Positions 4,920 to 14,034 of a stretch of 24,345 nt of DNA are shown here, piece after piece. A program made the position numbers and the translations under genes. Source of the DNA: a virus. Under the pieces are notes generated by a model that was given only the letters and a program-made list of their open reading frames with translations, made no database searches and was not told the origin of the DNA. The stretch lies in IMG/VR virus record IMGVR_UViG_3300037628_000174, positions 1-24,345 of that record. One strand, written 5' to 3'. The stretch's first letter is position 1, and every line of letters begins with the position of its first letter.

Positions 4920-6005
4920 TTGAACGAGATTAATATTGATTTTTTGGGTAGGTCAGGTGGCCAAGGAGAAATGGCCCAGTATATGATGGGCAATGGCCGT
5001 CTGGATGTTGGCAGAATGCGTCCATGGATACACCCCAGAACGGGTCAGGTCTACATCACAAGTTATCGTGGTGGGGACCCGAACAAACCAGCAAGCTATG
5101 TCAATGTTCCGATCCAGACCAATGCAACCCTGCGAAGGGATGAATGGATCAGGCTTGATGAGGTTGTCCTTCAGATTTCTGAAACGAGACTGAATGGCAT
5201 TCAGGACCTTATCAGCAACGGTCTGACCTTTGACCTTGGCAATGCTATGGGCACCACAGTCCTTGAATATCACACGGTGTCCGATGCTATGGAAGCGGCA
5301 CTGACCATGGATGGGGTAACCCGTTCCGTTGGTGACCGTCCGAACTTCGAGACGGCCTATTTGCCCCTTCCTATCATCCACGTGGATTATGAGATTAATG
5401 CACGTGTCCTTGCGGCCAGCCGGAACATGGGCAATCCGCTTGACACAACCAGTGCAGAGCGTGCAGCTAGGAAGGTGGCTGCCCAACTGGAAACCATGCT
5501 TTTCACCGCTACCAGCTACACCTACGGCGGGGGCACGATTTACAGTTATCTCAATGAGCCCGACAGGAATCTTGGTTCCCTTACAGGTGCATGGAATACC
5601 CCCCTGACAGGTGCCCAGATCCTGACGGATGTGCTTGCCATGAAGCAGAGTTCTATCAGCGCCCTGCATTATGGTCCGTGGTCGCTCTATGTGCCAACTG
5701 ATTACGAAACAACCTTGGATGGGGATTATGATGCAACCACCCCAGGGACGACAATCCGTGAGCGTATCCTAAAGGTGTCAGGGATCAATGAAGTGAAGGT
5801 GATTGATACACTGACTGCTGGATCTGTTCTTCTGGTCCAGATGACTTCAGATGTGGTTCGCCTTGTCCGTGGTCTTGGGATGCAGAACGTTGAATGGGAA
5901 ACTGAGGGAAAGATGATCACCAAGTACAAGGTGATGACCATCCAGGTCCCCCAGGTCAGATCCGATCAGGCCGGAAATTCCGGTGTCACACACTACAGCG
6001 TGTAG
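4920..6005 (+). CDS. Major capsid protein, HK97 fold
   Basis: This 361-residue protein initiates at TTG. The pattern in its middle and C-terminal parts fits HK97-fold capsids of the encapsulin/linocin-like group: F-E-T-A-Y-L-P-L-P-I-I-H-V-D-Y-E-I near 141-157, A-A-R-K-V-A-A-Q-L-E-T-M-L-F near 183-196, then Y-G-G-G-T-I-Y near 202-208. The P-domain and A-domain strands follow (S-L-Y-V-P-T-D-Y near 254-261, V-V-R-L-V-R-G-L-G near 313-321, V-M-T-I-Q-V-P-Q-V-R near 338-347). No long N-terminal delta domain of the HK97 gp5 type is seen, which agrees with a separate scaffold. Copy number should be the highest in the window, matching the perfect Shine-Dalgarno site. The fold is confident and the exact subfamily less so. 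Confidence 0.88.
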   Translation: MNEINIDFLGRSGGQGEMAQYMMGNGRLDVGRMRPWIHPRTGQVYITSYRGGDPNKPASYVNVPIQTNATLRRDEWIRLDEVVLQISETRLNGIQDLISNGLTFDLGNAMGTTVLEYHTVSDAMEAALTMDGVTRSVGDRPNFETAYLPLPIIHVDYEINARVLAASRNMGNPLDTTSAERAARKVAAQLETMLFTATSYTYGGGTIYSYLNEPDRNLGSLTGAWNTPLTGAQILTDVLAMKQSSISALHYGPWSLYVPTDYETTLDGDYDATTPGTTIRERILKVSGINEVKVIDTLTAGSVLLVQMTSDVVRLVRGLGMQNVEWETEGKMITKYKVMTIQVPQVRSDQAGNSGVTHYSV

Positions 6006-6049: not shown

Positions 6050-6076
6050 TCCCCCACCGTCTTGCTGGGTGGGGGA
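6050..6076 (+). other. Hairpin after capsid gene, no U-tract
   Basis: TCCCCCACC (6050-6058) pairs perfectly with GGTGGGGGA (6068-6076) around a nine-base loop, in the 90-base gap between the capsid gene and the next gene. No T run follows on either strand, so it is not a classic terminator. It could protect the capsid mRNA from 3' exonucleases or lower downstream expression. Confidence 0.6.
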
Positions 6077-6095
6077 CAAAGATTGGAGGCTAATC

Positions 6096-6707
6096 ATGAA
6101 TGCAACAAACGCACCAGATGTGGCATTGGAAGTTGAAGAAGAAAAGATCCAGTGGATAAAGAAGGGTGGTGGCACCTTTCAGCTTTTGATGAAGAACGGC
6201 AACCGTAAACCGATCAAGGAAAACCAGAAATTCTGGGCATTCCCCAGTGAAGTTCCTGAAGCATTCCGTGACGTCTTAATCCCTGTGGATTCACTACCTA
6301 CGGCACTGACAAACCTGGACAGAGTTATCAGTCCCAAAAGCACGAAATTCAAAAAGGTCCCAACAGACCCCAAAGACATGAACGAAGAACAAAGACAGGC
6401 ACTGGCTGATCTTGATGTGACAAGCCCGGGTGATGCCACAGAAGCAACAGATGCCAACGAACAGGATGGCGCAGATGGAACAGATGAAGGCGCTGACGAC
6501 GCCACAGGTGCTGCTGGTGAAGCTACTGCCACAGATGTGGCTGACGACACAGGTGCTGACACCGATGGCAAAGACCCTGAATACAAGATAGAAAAGAGGT
6601 CTGCAGGTTGGTTCGATGTGGTCAATATTGAAACAGGCAAGCCAATCAATGAAAGTGCTTTAAGGGAAGCAGCGGCAGACGAACTCCTTGAAAGCCTGAA
6701 CGACTGA
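6096..6707 (+). CDS. Phage protein with acidic low-complexity linker
   Basis: The ATG at 6096 (203 aa) has TGGAGG six bases upstream. An earlier in-frame GTG at 6069 falls inside the hairpin and is unlikely. Residues 13-95 form a compact domain with a Q-W-I-K-K-G-G-G-T-F segment and an F-W-A-F-P segment. Residues 105-155 are an Asp/Ala/Thr/Gly-rich acidic linker. The last 45 residues (Y-K-I-E-K-R-S-A-G-W-F-D-V-V-N, then G-K-P-I-N-E-S-A-L-R) are a small domain that recurs in phage proteins encoded next to capsid genes. Function is unknown. Its position suggests a head accessory, and its C-terminal tail motif may be a binding module. Its stop overlaps the next start (TGATG). Confidence 0.7.
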   Translation: MNATNAPDVALEVEEEKIQWIKKGGGTFQLLMKNGNRKPIKENQKFWAFPSEVPEAFRDVLIPVDSLPTALTNLDRVISPKSTKFKKVPTDPKDMNEEQRQALADLDVTSPGDATEATDANEQDGADGTDEGADDATGAAGEATATDVADDTGADTDGKDPEYKIEKRSAGWFDVVNIETGKPINESALREAAADELLESLND

Positions 6708-7426
6708 TGAAGTGGACAGCTCCACCGTTGTGGCAGGATGGGGAATGCTGGATCATCGGTGGTGGCCCTTCTATCGCCAAACAGTTTGGCATTCCCAAGG
6801 ATGTGGTCAAGGCCGTGGCCAACAGGACACAGCTTCCATCAGCCTATTCTGACTTCCTTGCACCGATCCATGGTAAGCACGTGATCGGTATAAATAACGT
6901 GTACCAGATAGGAACCTGGATTGACGTCCTGTTCTTTGGTGACTGTTCCTGGTTTATGGTTCACCAGAAGAAGCTTTCTGAATGGCCAGGGCTGAAGGTG
7001 ACTTGCTGCAATCGGTTTGAAAGAAAGCCTGTGGACCTGTCAGAGAGCATCAAGTATCTGGGACGTGATAAGGGTCACAAGAAGGGCATATCACGGAGAA
7101 CGTCTTTTGTTTCTTGGAATGACAATAGTGGGGCTGCATCAATATCCATGGCTGCACACTTTGGTGTCAAGCGGATAATCCTGCTAGGGTTTGACATGCG
7201 TATTGAAGATATCAAGTCAGGGCTTACCCACTGGCATGGCAGCCACGGCAACCCAAGGGACATCAAGAACAAGAGAGATCGGATAAAAAGGACTTACAAT
7301 CGTCACCTGATGGGGTTCGGTCCTATTGCCCACGATGCCAAAAAGAGGGGAATTGAAATCATCAATGCAAGCCCTGAAAGTTCAATCACGGACTTTCCAA
7401 AAGTGAAGCTGAAGGAACTACTATGA
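6707..7426 (+). CDS. DUF115/Maf-like or glycosyltransferase-like Rossmann protein
   Basis: This 239-residue protein begins the modification cassette, with TGATG overlap to the gene before. It has the architecture of DUF115 (Maf/MptE-like) and distant sialyltransferase-like folds: a nucleotide-binding-type loop I-I-G-G-G-P-S (16-22), H-V-I-G-I-N-N-V-Y (58-66), D-V-L-F-F-G-D (73-79), N-S-G-A-A-S (140-145), then I-I-L-L-G-F-D-M (157-164) followed by a His-rich stretch (T-H-W-H-G-S-H, 174-180). Maf proteins in flagellated bacteria transfer nonulosonic acids to flagellin Ser/Thr. By analogy this protein could attach a sugar to a protein. Family membership is by pattern, and the substrate is unknown. 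Confidence 0.6.
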   Translation: MKWTAPPLWQDGECWIIGGGPSIAKQFGIPKDVVKAVANRTQLPSAYSDFLAPIHGKHVIGINNVYQIGTWIDVLFFGDCSWFMVHQKKLSEWPGLKVTCCNRFERKPVDLSESIKYLGRDKGHKKGISRRTSFVSWNDNSGAASISMAAHFGVKRIILLGFDMRIEDIKSGLTHWHGSHGNPRDIKNKRDRIKRTYNRHLMGFGPIAHDAKKRGIEIINASPESSITDFPKVKLKELL

Positions 7427-7974
7427 AAAGGGTATTTTTAGATGTCGGTGCTGCAGAAGGATCAAGCATCCGGTTCTTCAGAAAAAACCATCCCGAATCT
7501 GACCAGTTTGAAATCCACTGCTTTGAACCACTACCATCCAATGTAGAACTGCTGGGTGAATATCGGGACATCACCATCATCCCTGCTGCTGCATGGAAGT
7601 CCAATGGAACCAGCATCCTGTACCAGGGCAAGAAAAAGAGTGGCAGCATGTATAGTGACAAGACAACGGGTCTGGTGAGCAAGGACAATCCCCTGGAAAT
7701 TGACACCATCGATCTTGCCGAATACATCAAGTCCAACTTCACCCAGGATGACGAAATCTGGATCAAGATCAATACAGAAGGGGCAGAATACGAAATCATC
7801 CCCCACCTGCATGCAGAAGGGCTGATCCCCTGGTTTGACAGGATGTATATCAAATGGCATGGAGGGAGAAAGATCCCGTCACTGGAGAGCGTGGACAAGG
7901 TCACCAGGGCACTGGTCCCAGAATCGATTGGGTTGTGGAGGAAAAAGAAGATACTGCCACTGGTGGAAGCATGA
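7423..7974 (+). CDS. FkbM-family SAM-dependent methyltransferase
   Basis: This 183-residue protein overlaps the preceding gene by ATGA. The FkbM pattern is clear: motif I F-L-D-V-G-A-A-E-G (5-13) for SAM binding, F-E-P (34-36) at the end of the second strand, D-T-I-D-L-A-E-Y (94-101) and I-K-I-N-T-E-G-A-E-Y-E-I-I (114-126). FkbM enzymes O-methylate hydroxyls on sugars or small molecules. It is slightly short for the family, ending soon after the last core strand. Next to glycosyltransferases, sugar O-methylation is the likely role. The next gene starts at an ATGA overlap. Confidence 0.85.
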   Translation: MKRVFLDVGAAEGSSIRFFRKNHPESDQFEIHCFEPLPSNVELLGEYRDITIIPAAAWKSNGTSILYQGKKKSGSMYSDKTTGLVSKDNPLEIDTIDLAEYIKSNFTQDDEIWIKINTEGAEYEIIPHLHAEGLIPWFDRMYIKWHGGRKIPSLESVDKVTRALVPESIGLWRKKKILPLVEA

Positions 7975-8711
7975 CAGCGAATATCACAGTCATCATACCA
8001 TACTACAGGGCACCAGTCATGCTTCAGAAGCAGCTTGAAGTCATAGCCCTGTATCCACCTGGGTATAGGGTGATAGTCGTTGATGACTGCAGTCCAGAGC
8101 CAGCAGAGGACATCCTTCCGTGTTGGCCAGAAAGAAGTCTGCCAAGTGTGGACCTATACCGGATTGACACTGACATCCCCTGGAACAGGGAAGGGGCCAG
8201 GAACCTGGGGGCACACCTGGCTGACACCCCATGGATACTTCACGTTGATATTGACCATGTGCTTCCAGTTGACAGTGCAGGCAAGCTGCTACAGACAAGC
8301 CTGGACACAGACTGCTGGTATCGGTTTTCAAGGTTCAGGGTGGGCGTGGCCGATGACACCAGGAAGAAGGACACGATTCATGATGGCATGGAATATGGAC
8401 CGATCAAGCCACACATCGATTCCTACCTATGCACCAGGGATCTATACTGGGAAGCGGGTGGATACGATGAAGACTATTCTGGCAGCCTGGGTGGTGGTGG
8501 TCCGTTCCTGAAGATGATGAAAAGGACAGCAGGGGAAGCCCAGGTCTTTGAAGACATCCACCTTGAAGTCTACACAAGGAGTGTGGTGCCAGATGCTTCC
8601 GTGTGGGATCTGAGCCGTGATAAGGTCGAATTTAAGAACAATCATCGAAGGAAAGGAAGGGTCAAGGGCCAGAACCCACTTCGATTTGACTGGAGAAAGG
8701 TTGATCTATGA
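7971..8711 (+). CDS. Family 2 (GT-A) glycosyltransferase
   Basis: The ATG at 7971 (246 aa) overlaps the methyltransferase stop as ATGA. A longer open frame upstream lies within that gene and is not used. GT2 hallmarks are I-T-V-I-I-P-Y-Y (5-12), V-V-D-D-C-S (36-41) for the nucleotide base, N-R-E-G-A-R-N-L-G (72-80), the metal-binding D-I-D-H (93-96) in place of DxD, and G-G-Y-D-E-D-Y-S-G (163-171) for the acceptor side. No membrane helix is present, so it should act in the cytosol on a protein or soluble acceptor. Donor and acceptor cannot be read from sequence. Confidence 0.9.
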   Translation: MTANITVIIPYYRAPVMLQKQLEVIALYPPGYRVIVVDDCSPEPAEDILPCWPERSLPSVDLYRIDTDIPWNREGARNLGAHLADTPWILHVDIDHVLPVDSAGKLLQTSLDTDCWYRFSRFRVGVADDTRKKDTIHDGMEYGPIKPHIDSYLCTRDLYWEAGGYDEDYSGSLGGGGPFLKMMKRTAGEAQVFEDIHLEVYTRSVVPDASVWDLSRDKVEFKNNHRRKGRVKGQNPLRFDWRKVDL

Positions 8712-9307
8712 AGCAGAGTGGCACAGCACTGTCCTTTCCAGATGCAAGAATTATGGTCTATGCAGCGCCAAAGGCTGCATGTACGTCCGTCAAGAAGACA
8801 CTGGCATCAGCATATATGGAACCGTTTGACAAAACTGCACGTGATGCACTGCACCGGCTTAAAAGGAATGAAAGATGCTTGGACTATTTCAGGATAGCCT
8901 TCTGCAGGAATCCCATGGAAAAGATACGAAGCATCTATGCCGAAAAGCTGGTCCAGCGGAAAGCTGTCAAGCCCCTTCTTCGGGATCTGGGCTTCTATAA
9001 GGAAATGCCATTTGCAGACTATATCAATCTGGTGGTATCCATCACGGATGAAAAGGCAGAAAAACATCTGAAGTCACAACACCTGCTACTGTTTCGTGAT
9101 GGACCACCGGACCTGCTGATCCGGTTTGAAGACCTGACAAAGGGGTGGAAGCGAGTGCAGAAGATTTTCAAGGATCGATGCAGCAGGAACATTCCAGACC
9201 TCATGTGGGAAAACAAGACCACGGCTGAAAAACCGGCATTGACGGACCAGATGAAGACGGCAATAGCCCATCGGTATAAACAAGACATTCAAATGCTGGG
9301 GTATTAA
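8708..9307 (+). CDS. Sulfotransferase-like protein (Sulfotransfer_2-type)
   Basis: This 199-residue protein overlaps the GT2 gene by ATGA. Its P-loop A-P-K-A-A-C-T-S-V-K (20-29) matches the 5'-phosphosulfate-binding loop of carbohydrate sulfotransferases (typically P-K-x-G/A-C/S-T-x-x-K). The F-C-R-N-P-M-E-K-I-R-S-I-Y-A-E-K segment (65-80) matches the 3'-phosphate-binding element R-N-P-x-x-R-x-x-S-x-Y. R-F-E-D-L near 138-142 and the ending Y-K-Q-D-I-Q-M-L-G-Y also fit. It would transfer sulfate from host-made PAPS to a sugar hydroxyl. There is no signal peptide or transmembrane anchor, unlike eukaryotic Golgi enzymes. Such genes are uncommon in phages. Confidence 0.8.
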   Translation: MKQSGTALSFPDARIMVYAAPKAACTSVKKTLASAYMEPFDKTARDALHRLKRNERCLDYFRIAFCRNPMEKIRSIYAEKLVQRKAVKPLLRDLGFYKEMPFADYINLVVSITDEKAEKHLKSQHLLLFRDGPPDLLIRFEDLTKGWKRVQKIFKDRCSRNIPDLMWENKTTAEKPALTDQMKTAIAHRYKQDIQMLGY

Positions 9308-9311
9308 AACT

Positions 9312-9668
9312 ATGGGAAAGCATCCGACATTTCGCTATGGTCATCCTGCTTACGTCGATGAAGACGTACCAGCATACAAGTACAAGGACGATGATAGCCT
9401 GGTTGGAATTGGTGGAAACAAGGTATGTCCAAAGTGCAAGAAGTCCCCTGCAGACTTCGGTGGGCATGATCCCTGCATTTCAAATCTACCTGGTGTGTGG
9501 CGTGCATGCTGTGGACATGGGGTAAAGAAAGGCCACATAAAGTTCACCAATGGCGTGGTGATCAAGGGTGACTTCCATTCAATAACCAAGCAAGAAGCCC
9601 CCAAACCTGAACACCTTCAACGGGAAAAGGAGAGAGTGATTAGACATGGTAATCCAGAAGAGGGGTGA
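9312..9668 (+). CDS. Small cysteine-rich conserved phage protein
   Basis: This 118-residue protein starts four bases after the previous stop. The centre has C-P-K-C-K (38-42), D-P-C-I-S-N-L-P-G-V-W (53-63) and A-C-C-G-H-G (66-71), followed by I-K-F-T-N-G-V-V-I-K-G. The Cys/His set could bind one zinc. Short proteins with the same D-P-C-I-x-N-L-P-G-V plus C-C-G-H-G core recur as uncharacterised proteins in phages, usually as 50-70 residue proteins. Here the core carries about 35 extra N-terminal residues and a charged C-terminal tail. Function is unknown, and its placement between a sulfotransferase and a methyltransferase may or may not be meaningful. It overlaps the next gene by 23 bases. 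Confidence 0.7.
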   Translation: MGKHPTFRYGHPAYVDEDVPAYKYKDDDSLVGIGGNKVCPKCKKSPADFGGHDPCISNLPGVWRACCGHGVKKGHIKFTNGVVIKGDFHSITKQEAPKPEHLQREKERVIRHGNPEEG

Positions 9669-10260
9669 TTATGACGATTACGTTGTGCAGCAGGGGAAAA
9701 AGGGGAACAACCCTGGCAAGCGAAAGTGGCTTATCTCGGACAAGTCAAGGGCCAAAAGAAAGAGGCGGTTTGTCCAGATCCTGGACAGTGCCAAATCGGA
9801 CCTTCTTCCGGGCAAGATCTTGTGCCTTGGGGCAAGAACCGGATGCGAAGTTGCAGCGGCCAGGGGGGTGGGTTTTCCCGGTTCACAGGGGATAGACCTG
9901 CATCCAATAGGAAGCAAGCACCTGGTCAAAAAGGGTGACTGGCATGACATCCCGTTTGATGATGATAGCTTTGAAAATGCATTCACCAACTCGATTGACC
10001 ACTGCTACGACGTGGGCAAATTGGCAACTGAAGTCCACCGGATCTTGAAGCCAGGTGGTAGGTTCTACTTCATGATGTCCGAAAGGCAAATGCTGAAGGA
10101 CAAGCCGGACCAAAAGACCTATATGGCCGGGAGTCAAAATTTCCTGTTCTGGGAAAACGGGCATGACCTGGCCATGGAATTCACCAAGCACGGATTTCGG
10201 ATATTCAAAGAGTGGGCAGGTCGAAAGTGGGCAAGCTGTATCGTTGAAAAGGTGGTGTGA
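9646..10260 (+). CDS. Class I SAM-dependent methyltransferase (Methyltransf_11-like)
   Basis: This 204-residue protein starts at ATG 9646 with AGGAGAG upstream, inside the end of the previous gene. After a basic N-terminus (residues 15-45), motif I is K-I-L-C-L-G-A-R-T-G-C-E-V (57-69), the second-strand acidic residue is in G-I-D-L-H-P (82-87), then G-D-W-H-D-I-P-F-D-D-D-S-F (97-109) and H-R-I-L-K-P-G-G-R-F (131-140). The last motif is the classic beta5 region of small-molecule methyltransferases. Cassette context suggests a sugar or another soluble substrate. Nothing suggests a DNA target, since no DPPY-type motif is present. Confidence 0.85.
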   Translation: MVIQKRGDYDDYVVQQGKKGNNPGKRKWLISDKSRAKRKRRFVQILDSAKSDLLPGKILCLGARTGCEVAAARGVGFPGSQGIDLHPIGSKHLVKKGDWHDIPFDDDSFENAFTNSIDHCYDVGKLATEVHRILKPGGRFYFMMSERQMLKDKPDQKTYMAGSQNFLFWENGHDLAMEFTKHGFRIFKEWAGRKWASCIVEKVV

Positions 10261-10835
10261 TGGGTGCTGAAAAGGTTGGAAGAAGGTATAGGGGTAAAGG
10301 AGCCACTGGATACGAATCAAAAAGGGCTGGAAAGTCAAAATGGATAATGGAAAACAACGGAGTGGAAACACTTCTGCCCGTGGATGCTAACACCGTTCTG
10401 GACGTTCCGGTGGGTACTGGTCGGTTTAATTATCTTTACAGGCAACGAGGCTTGAATGTGACAGGCGTTGACACCTCACATGACATGCTTGAAGAAGCTC
10501 GAAAGAAAGGGATGCATGATCTTCGTGTGGGTGACATAAGGCATCTGCACTTCGATCACAAGCGATTTGACGTGGCAGTCTGTATTCGTCTGTTTGCATG
10601 GTTTGAACCAGATGAAGTCCTGGATGCACTGACCGAAATGGCACGTGTTGCTGGGATACTGATCGTGAATATACGCACCAAGGAAGGTGAAGCCTTCTGC
10701 AAAAGCAATTCCCTGTGGAACCATTCACGTGCTGACTTCACGTCCTGGGTGGCCACCATCGGATACCAGGTGGACGAAGTCTTCCACGTAGGCAACAAAG
10801 GCAATGACATATACAGGTTGACACCATGCGTATAG
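10260..10835 (+). CDS. Second class I SAM-dependent methyltransferase
   Basis: The ATG at 10260 (191 aa) overlaps the preceding stop as TGATG. An in-frame GTG one codon earlier is possible. Motif I is V-L-D-V-P-V-G-T-G-R-F (46-56), motif II ends in G-V-D-T-S-H-D-M-L (69-77), and G-D-I-R-H-L-H-F (91-98) leads to F-D-V-A-V-C-I-R (103-110). The D-V-P-V-G-T-G-R form with a Pro occurs in a subset of small-molecule methyltransferases. It is not a close copy of its neighbour at 9646: motif residues and loop lengths differ, so they are separate enzymes rather than a recent duplication. The substrate is unknown. It overlaps the next gene by ten bases. Confidence 0.85.
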   Translation: MGAEKVGRRYRGKGATGYESKRAGKSKWIMENNGVETLLPVDANTVLDVPVGTGRFNYLYRQRGLNVTGVDTSHDMLEEARKKGMHDLRVGDIRHLHFDHKRFDVAVCIRLFAWFEPDEVLDALTEMARVAGILIVNIRTKEGEAFCKSNSLWNHSRADFTSWVATIGYQVDEVFHVGNKGNDIYRLTPCV

Positions 10836-11431
10836 AAATGACCGGACCACCAACGGCTGGCAAATCAAGCATTGTGAAATCGCTTAGGAAAAGGGGCATG
10901 GAAAAGATGTCAGTGGTTTCCGTGGCCCGTAAGATCCCGAAGAAGTGGGGCGCCTTTGGGAAAGGTGTTGAAGAAATCTACAGCCAACGAAGCTTCAAGT
11001 CCCTGCCATTAAAGACATTGAACGCCCTGGCAGCAGCCTGGGATGCAAAGAAGAGCAAGGACTGGATAGTGTTTGATGAAGCGTTGATCCTGTGCGGCTT
11101 TTCATTGGCCATCAGGATTCCAGAAGAAGCTGAATGGTACTTCAAGCATGTGCCACTTCCTGACATCCTGGTCTATGTCACTGCCAGCAAGGATGTCCTA
11201 TTTGCAAGAAATGAACTGCGTGGGGATAGAAGCCGTCCTGACAAGACCCTTCGGTGTATGAGGGCACACAAGAAATATATCAGATTTCTGAAGGCAAGGC
11301 AGTGCAACATTCTACGGTTTGACACATCTGACATGACAACTGAATTCATAACCAATGAGATCGTAAAGGAAATCAAAGATGTCGAGCGAAGAAAGAACCG
11401 AAAAGGAAAGCATCCAGGACGAAAGCATTAG
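10826..11431 (+). CDS. P-loop kinase-like protein
   Basis: This 201-residue protein has a Walker A loop G-P-P-T-A-G-K-S-S (7-15) at its N-terminus. D-W-I-V-F-D-E-A (79-86) fits the acidic Walker B/DR-type strand of nucleoside and nucleotide kinases. P-L-P-D-I-L-V-Y-V-T-A (110-120) with Arg128 and Arg132 fits the lid region, and R-F-D-T-S (near 165) the final strand. It resembles thymidylate-kinase or deoxynucleoside-kinase folds, but the LID and substrate residues do not identify one. In a sulfation and glycosylation cassette it might activate a sugar or act in a PAPS-type pathway, which is speculation. The C-terminus is very basic and overlaps the next gene by 53 bases. Confidence 0.7.
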   Translation: MRIEMTGPPTAGKSSIVKSLRKRGMEKMSVVSVARKIPKKWGAFGKGVEEIYSQRSFKSLPLKTLNALAAAWDAKKSKDWIVFDEALILCGFSLAIRIPEEAEWYFKHVPLPDILVYVTASKDVLFARNELRGDRSRPDKTLRCMRAHKKYIRFLKARQCNILRFDTSDMTTEFITNEIVKEIKDVERRKNRKGKHPGRKH

Positions 11432-12947
11432 TGTTGTATGTTTTCTATGGGATGACGGTGTCAGGAATTACCTTCCTGAACATGTGAACCAGCTTGCCAT
11501 CATGGTACACAAGCACCTGGCTGTTCCCCACCGGTTCATATGCATCACAGACGAAGAAGATGGCTTCAGTGATGATGTCGAACTGTTCAAACTTCCAGAA
11601 GATGCCAGGTGGACACTTGGTCTGCTAAATCCGACAGGTTCAAAGAAGGGCCATCTACCATCGAGCTATAGAAGGCTGTGGCTGTTTTCTGAAGAAGCCA
11701 AGGCCCTGGGTGATCGTATCCTGATGACTGATATTGATTGCTTGGTCGTGAACAGCTTAGAACCAGTCTTTGACTTCACTGAAGACTTCGTGGGTTGGCG
11801 TCCCAGGTCTGAAGAAACCACCAAGGTGAAGGCAAAGGTCCCATATAAGCGGATAGGTGGTGGCACCTGGCTGCTTCGAACAGGGTCTATGACACACATA
11901 TGGGATGACTTTTCCACAGAAGGAATTGAAGCTGCAATGCTTGAAGGCTGGCGTGGATCTGATCAAGCCTGGTTGAGCTACAACCTGGCCAAGGACTGCA
12001 TGGTGTTTCCCGATGACGTGGGCATCTATCACACCCAGGACGGTGCCAAGTATTGGGAAGAAACCCCAAAAGATGCCAGGATCATTCATTTCAACGGGAA
12101 GGTGAATCCATGGGACGAAGATGCAAGATCAAGACCTTGGTTCTGTAGGCTTATTGGTGTTCCATATGATAAAACAAAATGGAAAAAGAAGAAACCAGTA
12201 CCATTCAGGAAACGCAAAAGACAACACGGTCCTGAACCGGTTGAAGTTGAACGTGTAGCTGAAGAAATTGACATTGTCATCTATTGGTGGGACAAATGGC
12301 CGGAAGGTCTACCAGGCATGGGCACGGCCTATATTAAAAAGCTGGTTGCCGGTGTGAAGCTGCATATCCCTGACGACATCGACTATAGAATTATCCTATT
12401 TACAGACAACATGGATGTGCAGATATCGGGAGTGGAAACTCGTGCGCTGGACATTCCGAACTTCAGGTGGAATCTAAAGAAGATGTTTATGTATTCCAAA
12501 AAGGCAAACCTTAGAAAGCACGTCCTGTGTCTGGACCTTGACTGCATAATCGTTGGGGATTTGTCCCCTGTGATAAGGCAGGTCCTGGCTCTAAACAGAA
12601 AGCTGCTTGTCACATGCATCGGTGCATATAGAAAAAAGCGTCTGGGCGGCAGCGTGATCGGATTCAGGACTTGCCGTGAACTTAACAAGCTTTTATGGGA
12701 ACCACTCCTGGGGGAAAGAAGGGCCTCACTTGAAGGCATCACCAAGGGTTCCGAACGGCGATACCTGCAAAGACAGCTTGCGCCAAAGCAGGTAGGGATG
12801 TGGGAGAGATACTTGCCTGGCCAGGTCCTGTCCTATAAGCGAGACTGTAAAAACGGACTTCCACATGGTGCATCCATTGTCCGGTTTCATGGCAGCCCTA
12901 GACCTCACCAAGTGAATGACGACTGGGTAAAGGAGAACTGGAAATGA
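11379..12947 (+). CDS. Tandem two-domain GT-A glycosyltransferase
   Basis: This 522-residue protein contains two glycosyltransferase-like domains joined by a Lys/Arg-rich linker (about 266-283). Domain 1 (about 17-262) has a V-V-C-F-L-W start, the metal site T-D-I-D-C (117-121), S-D-Q-A-W (194-198) and I-I-H-F-N-G-K (235-241). Domain 2 (about 297-522) has the equivalent I-V-I-Y-W-W start, L-D-L-D-C (385-389) and V-R-F-H-G-S (501-506). This order resembles GT8-like and phage-encoded DxD transferases. Both domains keep the DxD and the late His-containing strand, so both could be active. Domain 2 lacks an obvious S-D-Q-A-W. The start at 11379 lies deep in the previous gene, but no later ATG precedes the first strand. 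Confidence 0.82.
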   Translation: MSSEERTEKESIQDESISVVCFLWDDGVRNYLPEHVNQLAIMVHKHLAVPHRFICITDEEDGFSDDVELFKLPEDARWTLGLLNPTGSKKGHLPSSYRRLWLFSEEAKALGDRILMTDIDCLVVNSLEPVFDFTEDFVGWRPRSEETTKVKAKVPYKRIGGGTWLLRTGSMTHIWDDFSTEGIEAAMLEGWRGSDQAWLSYNLAKDCMVFPDDVGIYHTQDGAKYWEETPKDARIIHFNGKVNPWDEDARSRPWFCRLIGVPYDKTKWKKKKPVPFRKRKRQHGPEPVEVERVAEEIDIVIYWWDKWPEGLPGMGTAYIKKLVAGVKLHIPDDIDYRIILFTDNMDVQISGVETRALDIPNFRWNLKKMFMYSKKANLRKHVLCLDLDCIIVGDLSPVIRQVLALNRKLLVTCIGAYRKKRLGGSVIGFRTCRELNKLLWEPLLGERRASLEGITKGSERRYLQRQLAPKQVGMWERYLPGQVLSYKRDCKNGLPHGASIVRFHGSPRPHQVNDDWVKENWK

Positions 12948-13645
12948 AGGATCCAATCCTAATCACTGGGGCAGCAAGAAGTGGGACCAGTATGGTGGCC
13001 GGGATGATCAACATATGTGGCGCTTTTGGCGGAAACATGTCAGGACCAAATAGCAACAACGCCAAGGGGATGTTTGAAAATGCCAGCATCAGGCAGAACG
13101 TGGTCAAGCCTTATCTTCGGGACATCAAAGTCGATCACATGGGGCAATACCCACTGCCTGAGATCGACGGTCTGAACATCCCTAATGACTGGAAAGCCAG
13201 AGTGGAAGGCGTGATCAAGAGCGAAGGCTACAAGGACGGCACGCCATGGATGTATAAGGGGGCCAAGATGTGCCTGATGTGGCCAGTGTGGCATTATGCC
13301 TTTCCGGATGCCAAGTGGATCATAGTCAGAAGAAGGACGGGTGATATTGCCACATCATGCATCAAGACCAACTTCATGCGGGCATTTACACGGGAACAGT
13401 TCAGGTCTGCAGTTGGTGCAAAGGACGAAAGGGACGGATGGATCTGGTGGGTCAGGCAGCACGAAGCTAGGTTCTATGAAATGATCACCCATGGCATCAA
13501 TGCCAAGATCGTATGGCCAGAAAGGATGGTGGGTGGTGACTACAAGCAGATAATGGAAACCATCGATTGGCTGGGACTGGATTGGAAGTCAGAAGCATTG
13601 AGTTTCGTAGATCCAAAATTATGGAAAAGCCGAAGGAAGAAATAG
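12944..13645 (+). CDS. Second sulfotransferase-like P-loop protein
   Basis: This 233-residue protein overlaps the glycosyltransferase by ATGA and closes the cassette. I-L-I-T-G-A-A-R-S-G-T-S-M-V-A-G (5-20) is the sulfotransferase-type 5'-phosphosulfate loop (G-x-x-R-S-G-T-S/T). K-W-I-I-V-R-R-R-T-G-D-I-A-T-S (124-138) fits the 3'-phosphate-binding Arg/Ser element. G-M-F-E-N (42-46) is commonly seen in bacterial sulfotransferase-like proteins. The fold differs in detail from the 8708 protein, so two unrelated sulfotransferase types occur in one operon. It would need host PAPS. A P-loop kinase is a less likely alternative. Confidence 0.78.
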   Translation: MKDPILITGAARSGTSMVAGMINICGAFGGNMSGPNSNNAKGMFENASIRQNVVKPYLRDIKVDHMGQYPLPEIDGLNIPNDWKARVEGVIKSEGYKDGTPWMYKGAKMCLMWPVWHYAFPDAKWIIVRRRTGDIATSCIKTNFMRAFTREQFRSAVGAKDERDGWIWWVRQHEARFYEMITHGINAKIVWPERMVGGDYKQIMETIDWLGLDWKSEALSFVDPKLWKSRRKK

Positions 13646-13656
13646 GGAGGCAGTAA

Positions 13657-14034
13657 ATGGCAAACAGGACAACAGCAACAGACGTAAAGCTGATACTGGA
13701 TACTGATCTGGACGATCCAATAGTGGAAGCGTTCATTTCTGATGCCAACCCTATCGTGACGGACGTGCTTGGATCTGACACTTCACTGTCTTCTGCACAG
13801 AAGGCATCCATAGAAAAGTGGCTGACAGCCCACTTTATTGCATGCACCAGGGACCAGCAAGCCCAAAGGGAAGAAGCCGATGAAGCTGCCATAGTCTACC
13901 AGGGAAAGACGGCAATGGGACTGGATGCCACATATTACGGGCAGCAGGTCAAGGTTCTTGATACAACGGGCAAGATGGCCAAGGCTCTTGGTAAAAGACG
14001 TGTCACCATCACGGCCATCACCAGCTTCGAATAG
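13657..14034 (+). CDS. Head-tail connector (HK97 gp6-like adaptor)
   Basis: This 125-residue mostly helical protein has GGGAGG upstream and begins a return to morphogenesis genes. The pattern T-A-T-D-V-K-L-I-L-D-T-D-L-D-D-x-I-V-E-A-F-I-S-D-A followed by helices (S-S-A-Q-K-A-S-I-E-K-W-L-T-A-H-F) fits small connector proteins that assemble as a ring under the portal. The C-terminal G-M-G/L-D-A-T-Y-Y-G-Q-Q-V, then G-x-M-A-K-A-L-G-K, is found in the same kind of protein. In the usual siphovirus order this gene follows the capsid gene closely. Here it is separated from it by the 7-kb cassette. Confidence 0.75.
   Translation: MANRTTATDVKLILDTDLDDPIVEAFISDANPIVTDVLGSDTSLSSAQKASIEKWLTAHFIACTRDQQAQREEADEAAIVYQGKTAMGLDATYYGQQVKVLDTTGKMAKALGKRRVTITAITSFE

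Follow-up and report, generated by a model that had tools for sequence, protein, structure and literature searches.

What does a virus gain by carrying, between its major capsid gene and its putative head-tail connector gene, a run of genes whose predicted products resemble enzymes of glycan synthesis? The window (the whole stretch of DNA analysed, a complete virus record of 24,345 bases classed as a fragment or linear) encodes on the plus strand ten open reading frames, A to J, at positions 6707-13645. Head genes lie on the 5' side of this cassette and neck, connector, tail and tape-measure genes on the 3' side. The upstream border is the major capsid gene (4920-6005, plus strand; phrog_771 9.9e-20, DUF6260 3.3e-18), whose product is a possible acceptor of the glycan and also scored above the cut-off for the encapsulin family Linocin_M18. 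It is followed by w8 (6069-6707, plus strand), a small protein whose N- and C-terminal domains are conserved and which has an acidic linker. The downstream border (13657-14034, plus strand) matches phrog_37884, a family of no assigned function, and is named a putative head-tail connector by its position.

The original prediction had described ten co-directional genes between capsid and connector, overlapping at nearly every junction, and products free of membrane helices. All ten reading frames were recovered at the same positions, eight of the nine internal junctions overlap (D/E is the exception), and Kyte-Doolittle hydropathy found no membrane segment in any of the ten proteins. Distances from stop to next start are -1 for w8/A, -4 for A/B, B/C and C/D, +4 for D/E, -23 for E/F, -4 for F/G, -10 for G/H, -53 for H/I, -4 for I/J and +11 for J/connector. 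This arrangement is not due to chance, since it recurs in dozens of nonredundant relatives.

Profile searches of all ten proteins against Pfam, PHROGs and NCBIfam gave a family for nine, weakly so for H, and none for E. Gene A (6707-7426, plus strand), the conserved first gene, matched phrog_4603 at 4.9e-35. Its Pfam match to the MptE-like family PF01973 (9.7e-5, 22.6 bits) falls short of the curated cut-off of 34.6 bits, so we file it only as CstII/Maf(DUF115)-like, taking Maf to be a member of the DUF115 group. A PDB sequence search with the A profile returned weak matches only. The structure model of A (pLDDT 95.4) found its best PDB fold match in the sialyltransferase CstII (1ro8, E 2.5e-5, probability 1.00, TM about 0.5), followed by MptE-type HPPK and then by weaker GT29 sialyltransferases. 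Judged by the CstII-like fold, A is most likely a glycosyltransferase, although its resemblance to MptE-type HPPK counts against this. In one relative (L124), A is fused to a GT2 domain.

The remaining genes are all on the plus strand. Above their cut-offs are B, an FkbM methyltransferase (7423-7974; TIGR01444 1.2e-13), C, a GT2 glycosyltransferase (7971-8711; PF00535 2.7e-11), D, a Sulfotransfer_2 sulfotransferase (8708-9307; PF03567 3.9e-7) with candidate PAPS-site residues judged by eye only, and the class-I methyltransferases F (9646-10260; PF08241 6.9e-8) and G (10257-10835; PF13649 2e-16). The Cys-rich protein E (9312-9668) stands outside known families, with no Pfam or NCBIfam match and one weak relative in a jumbo phage. 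H (10826-11431) is a P-loop kinase-like protein with weak P-loop and thymidylate-kinase-like matches only (AAA_18 3.5e-5, phrog_761 1.4e-7). I (11379-12947) is a two-domain GT8-like glycosyltransferase (phrog_1962 3.6e-20, with a weak GT8 match) whose D-x-D pair is kept at 93% and 100% in relatives; with C, it makes up the phage glycosyltransferases assigned in the window by these families. J (12944-13645), usually the last gene, resembles Sulfotransfer_3 at 5.9e-5, just under the cut-off (23.9 against 27), while its homologue in L045 scores 31.8, above it. Residues R12, S13, G14, R130 and S138 of J, a candidate PAPS site, are conserved at 98-100% across 62 aligned rows. With the limits applied, tblastn against 50,697 phage records gave no match for either J or H.

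Relatives were gathered from scans with capsid and A alignments, to which the window and a few phage records were added. The 157 loci with a capsid gene formed 112 clusters at 95% capsid identity, and 56 nonredundant clusters were closed, that is, had both borders present. Genes of relatives come from our own tiling of open reading frames, on contigs that are often fragments; as the tiling allows overlaps, gene coupling in relatives cannot be proven from it. A is present in 51 of the 56 closed clusters (50 by tiling, and L039 added by tblastn after the tiling had missed it), and wherever tiled it is the first gene after w8. A J-type sulfotransferase occurs in 43 of the 56 and is last in 40 of those 43, and I-like transferases occur in 39. 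Since A itself was used to find part of the full set, the loci found through the capsid give the fairer count: among the 38 closed clusters of this subset, A is found in 33 (including L039) and J in 26, last in 25. Two of these capsid-found closed loci, L157 and L159, have neither gene. L071 and L158 carry J but lack A, and L039, among others, carries A but lacks J, so the two do not form one obligate pathway. The span from capsid to connector ranges from 94 to 10,017 bp. In L003 (9051-11141) and L007 (10675-13519), large proteins with no enzyme signature follow A directly; these are possibly fibre-like virion proteins and glycan acceptors.

Between the conserved ends, the gene content changes from locus to locus. 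Counting as cargo all genes of at least 140 aa other than A, J and w8, the 56 closed loci hold 370 genes in 98 families, 51 of them singletons. Methyltransferases are the commonest Pfam assignment among family representatives and GT2 comes next; epimerase, GDP-mannose dehydratase, DegT aminotransferase, formyltransferase and short-chain dehydrogenase are also found. L045, for instance, carries GT11, DegT, epimerase and Sulfotransfer_3 genes, and L025 carries PfkB, alcohol dehydrogenase, transketolase-like, GT9 and methyltransferase genes. Profiles of the window's own genes found D in a total of two loci, and E, G and H nowhere but in the window. A NUMOD3 motif was seen in 2 of 94 family representatives and Radical SAM in 3 of 94.

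Pairwise comparison of close relatives locates where this content changes: loci with similar flanks hold unrelated middles. L115 and L036 share 82.5% DNA identity as far as the 3' end of A, and 89% again from the start of J, with no blastn match between these two points. L126 and L028 follow the same pattern, losing identity after A and regaining it at J, and in L099 and L103 identity resumes at a GT9 gene, the conserved last gene there in place of J. In these three pairs the breakpoints point to homologous recombination within the conserved genes at either end. The cassette of the window is one allele of an exchangeable locus with conserved ends (A, and usually I and J) and a variable middle. 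The original prediction had treated the cassette of the window by itself, and this design emerges only from the relatives.

A further link between the head block and the glycan enzymes is provided by w8, which is present in 54 of the 56 closed clusters. Enzymes on seven contigs also carry its N-terminal domain of about 40 residues, with E of about 1e-15 to 1e-20: fused with a second DUF115-like domain and FkbM (L040, L059), within a 705-aa Capsule_synth-like protein (L096, L103) and within a 314-aa protein of no assigned family (L099, L051, L052). These fusions link the head block to glycan enzymes, and we hypothesize that the domain probably docks the enzymes on a head protein. An open reading frame with the w8 N-domain is also kept in L159, which has no cassette. 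Neither sequence nor fold gave w8 a significant PDB match, it has no consistent PHROG, and a representative, searched with tblastn against the 50,697 phage records under the limits applied, found no match.

Some homologues of A in other phages occupy comparable places. In Psp6, phi1 and Tetraselmis viridis virus S20 they sit between capsid and connector genes, and the window's capsid protein has no match to any of the three; the S20 capsid belongs to another capsid family, phrog_10. The head region of S20 resembles that of the window: an A homologue comes after the capsid gene, and head closure is preceded by GT2-like, methyltransferase and phrog_1962 genes as well as, further downstream than the A homologue, another phrog_4603 gene. 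It differs in its capsid, in a head-tail adaptor that lies among the glycan genes, and in that no w8 or J homologue was found there. The S20 homologue of A (L009, 6001-6741) covers two annotated coding sequences and may hold a frameshift. In P1 (pmgO) and CcrColossus the A homologue shares its region with other transferases, and in CcrColossus it follows the tail genes. In CBW1004C-Prop1 (L170, 5974-6504), the head region includes a D-related sulfotransferase directly followed by a 'DNA-stabilizing protein'; the gene in front of the sulfotransferase would be the coat gene by analogy with P22-like order.

The best reading of the locus, to which we give a probability of roughly 0.7, is an exchangeable virion-glycan locus within the head gene block, with glycan, chemistry and acceptor predicted from the genes. 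It is the best-supported reading because of the position and coupling in the head operon, the lack of membrane machinery, the A homologues beside another capsid family, the w8-domain fusions and the finding of no general DNA-hypermodification gene set in relatives. The enzymes could instead act on another part of the virion, such as the tail or a head fibre, or J could sulfate a protein directly, the modification then being virion-directed but not a capsid glycan. The J-only loci L071 and L158, the A-only L039, the position of the CcrColossus homologue and the large proteins after A in L003 and L007 would fit such a target; nevertheless, capsid and connector genes bound the locus and most closed loci hold several glycosyltransferases, and we consider this unlikely. 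Much less probable is a DNA target, with modified bases decorated by the transferases, the methyltransferases and the kinase, and with their place in the head block incidental. H is weakly thymidylate-kinase-like, and DNA-modifying glycosyltransferases have been described in phages (cited in PMC12619734), but H occurs in no relative, a thymidylate-synthase family was found in 1 of 23 relative contigs (many incomplete), and sulfotransferases and deoxyaminosugar enzymes suit glycans better. ADDT pyrophosphorylase was found in 0 of the 23, where the search control likewise gave no match. The original prediction had also ranked DNA hypermodification as the weaker explanation.

A mere insertion hot spot, gathering metabolic genes with no joint function, is a shade less probable again: it would account for the 98 cargo families with 51 singletons and for the lower GC of the cassette relative to the upstream sequence, seen in 48 of 51 loci (mean difference 3.6 points), but not for a cargo strongly skewed to glycan enzymes, nor for conserved ends, retained catalytic residues and fused domains. 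We give least weight of all to modification of the host surface, by serotype conversion or superinfection exclusion, in spite of the resemblance of the cargo to bacterial surface-polysaccharide genes. Plain hydropathy assigned at most one membrane segment to each of 569 cassette proteins, which leaves no candidate for a flippase, a polymerase or a GtrA/GtrC-like protein among them; the locus is in late head position; and promoter-like sites are no commoner than in shuffled sequence, both promoter- and terminator-like sites being at about chance level. O-antigen conversion, already held less likely at the outset, loses further ground with these observations.

Mechanistically, the virion-glycan reading would run as follows. 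The capsid protein, w8 and the soluble transferases would be made from one late head gene block, whose position and coupling are observed, presumably on a shared transcript. In the cytosol, A would most likely place the first sugar on a head protein, and the variable cargo, made up of glycosyltransferases and methyltransferases with nucleotide-sugar enzymes added in some relatives, would build and trim the glycan. The set would usually end with I and J; J, judging by its family and conserved sites, would probably transfer sulfate from host PAPS. The w8 N-domain carried by some enzymes would probably dock them to a head protein. Recombination in the conserved A and the conserved last gene would then swap the middle, a swap visible in the alignments, so that similar particles could carry different coats. 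Context favours the virion-glycan part of the sulfated, methylated coat first proposed; its sulfate and methyl finish rests on enzyme families. Whether the locus specifies a 'capsid serotype', with alternative and often sulfated head glycan coats made by soluble, partly w8-docked enzymes and swapped wholesale through the A and last-gene borders, we regard as an evenly balanced proposition.

Bacterial O-antigen and capsule loci have conserved borders and a variable, exchangeable middle of glycan genes. The cassette resembles them by analogy in this design, but differs in lying in a viral head operon and in having no membrane flippase or polymerase. To our knowledge, virion glycosylation is documented in few phages. 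Measured glycans on capsid or tail-tube subunits are described for mycobacteriophages Che8 and Rita (Freeman et al. 2023, as cited in PMC11256854 and PMC12619734). The glycosyltransferases are phage-encoded there too; the glycan was measured in those phages, whereas here it is predicted from genes. The F1 phage Maravista has its transferase genes close to the 3' genome end (PMC11256854), while those of the window are in the head operon, and the window locus differs from the mycobacteriophage systems in its sulfotransferases and exchangeable middle. Chloroviruses and mimiviruses encode lineage-specific glycosyltransferases, nucleotide-sugar enzymes and, in some cases, sulfate metabolism for the particle surface, and glycan variants define the antigenic classes of PBCV-1 (PMC7019647, PMC9614988). 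Their virus-encoded glycan gene sets likewise differ by lineage, but hosts are eukaryotic, capsids are other, and there are no conserved A and J borders in a head operon. Maf proteins transfer nonulosonic acids onto flagellin (PMC13317340); A has a fold like that of the GT42 sialyltransferase CstII, but it is viral, short and made of one domain.

Openly licensed papers yielded no description of a locus of this kind, and the function of phage sulfotransferases has been called unclear (PMC10580990). If the virion-glycan reading is true, this common exchangeable glycan locus in the head operon would place particle chemistry under diversifying exchange in a broad uncultured phage group and would offer phage sulfotransferases a role, with the conserved A, the conserved last gene and the candidate docking domain as experimental handles. 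Binned relatives span several phyla, and one cassette-bearing relative (L162, CP070742.1) lies within the 3.74-Mb chromosome of a Zixibacteria MAG, a weak clue to a host.
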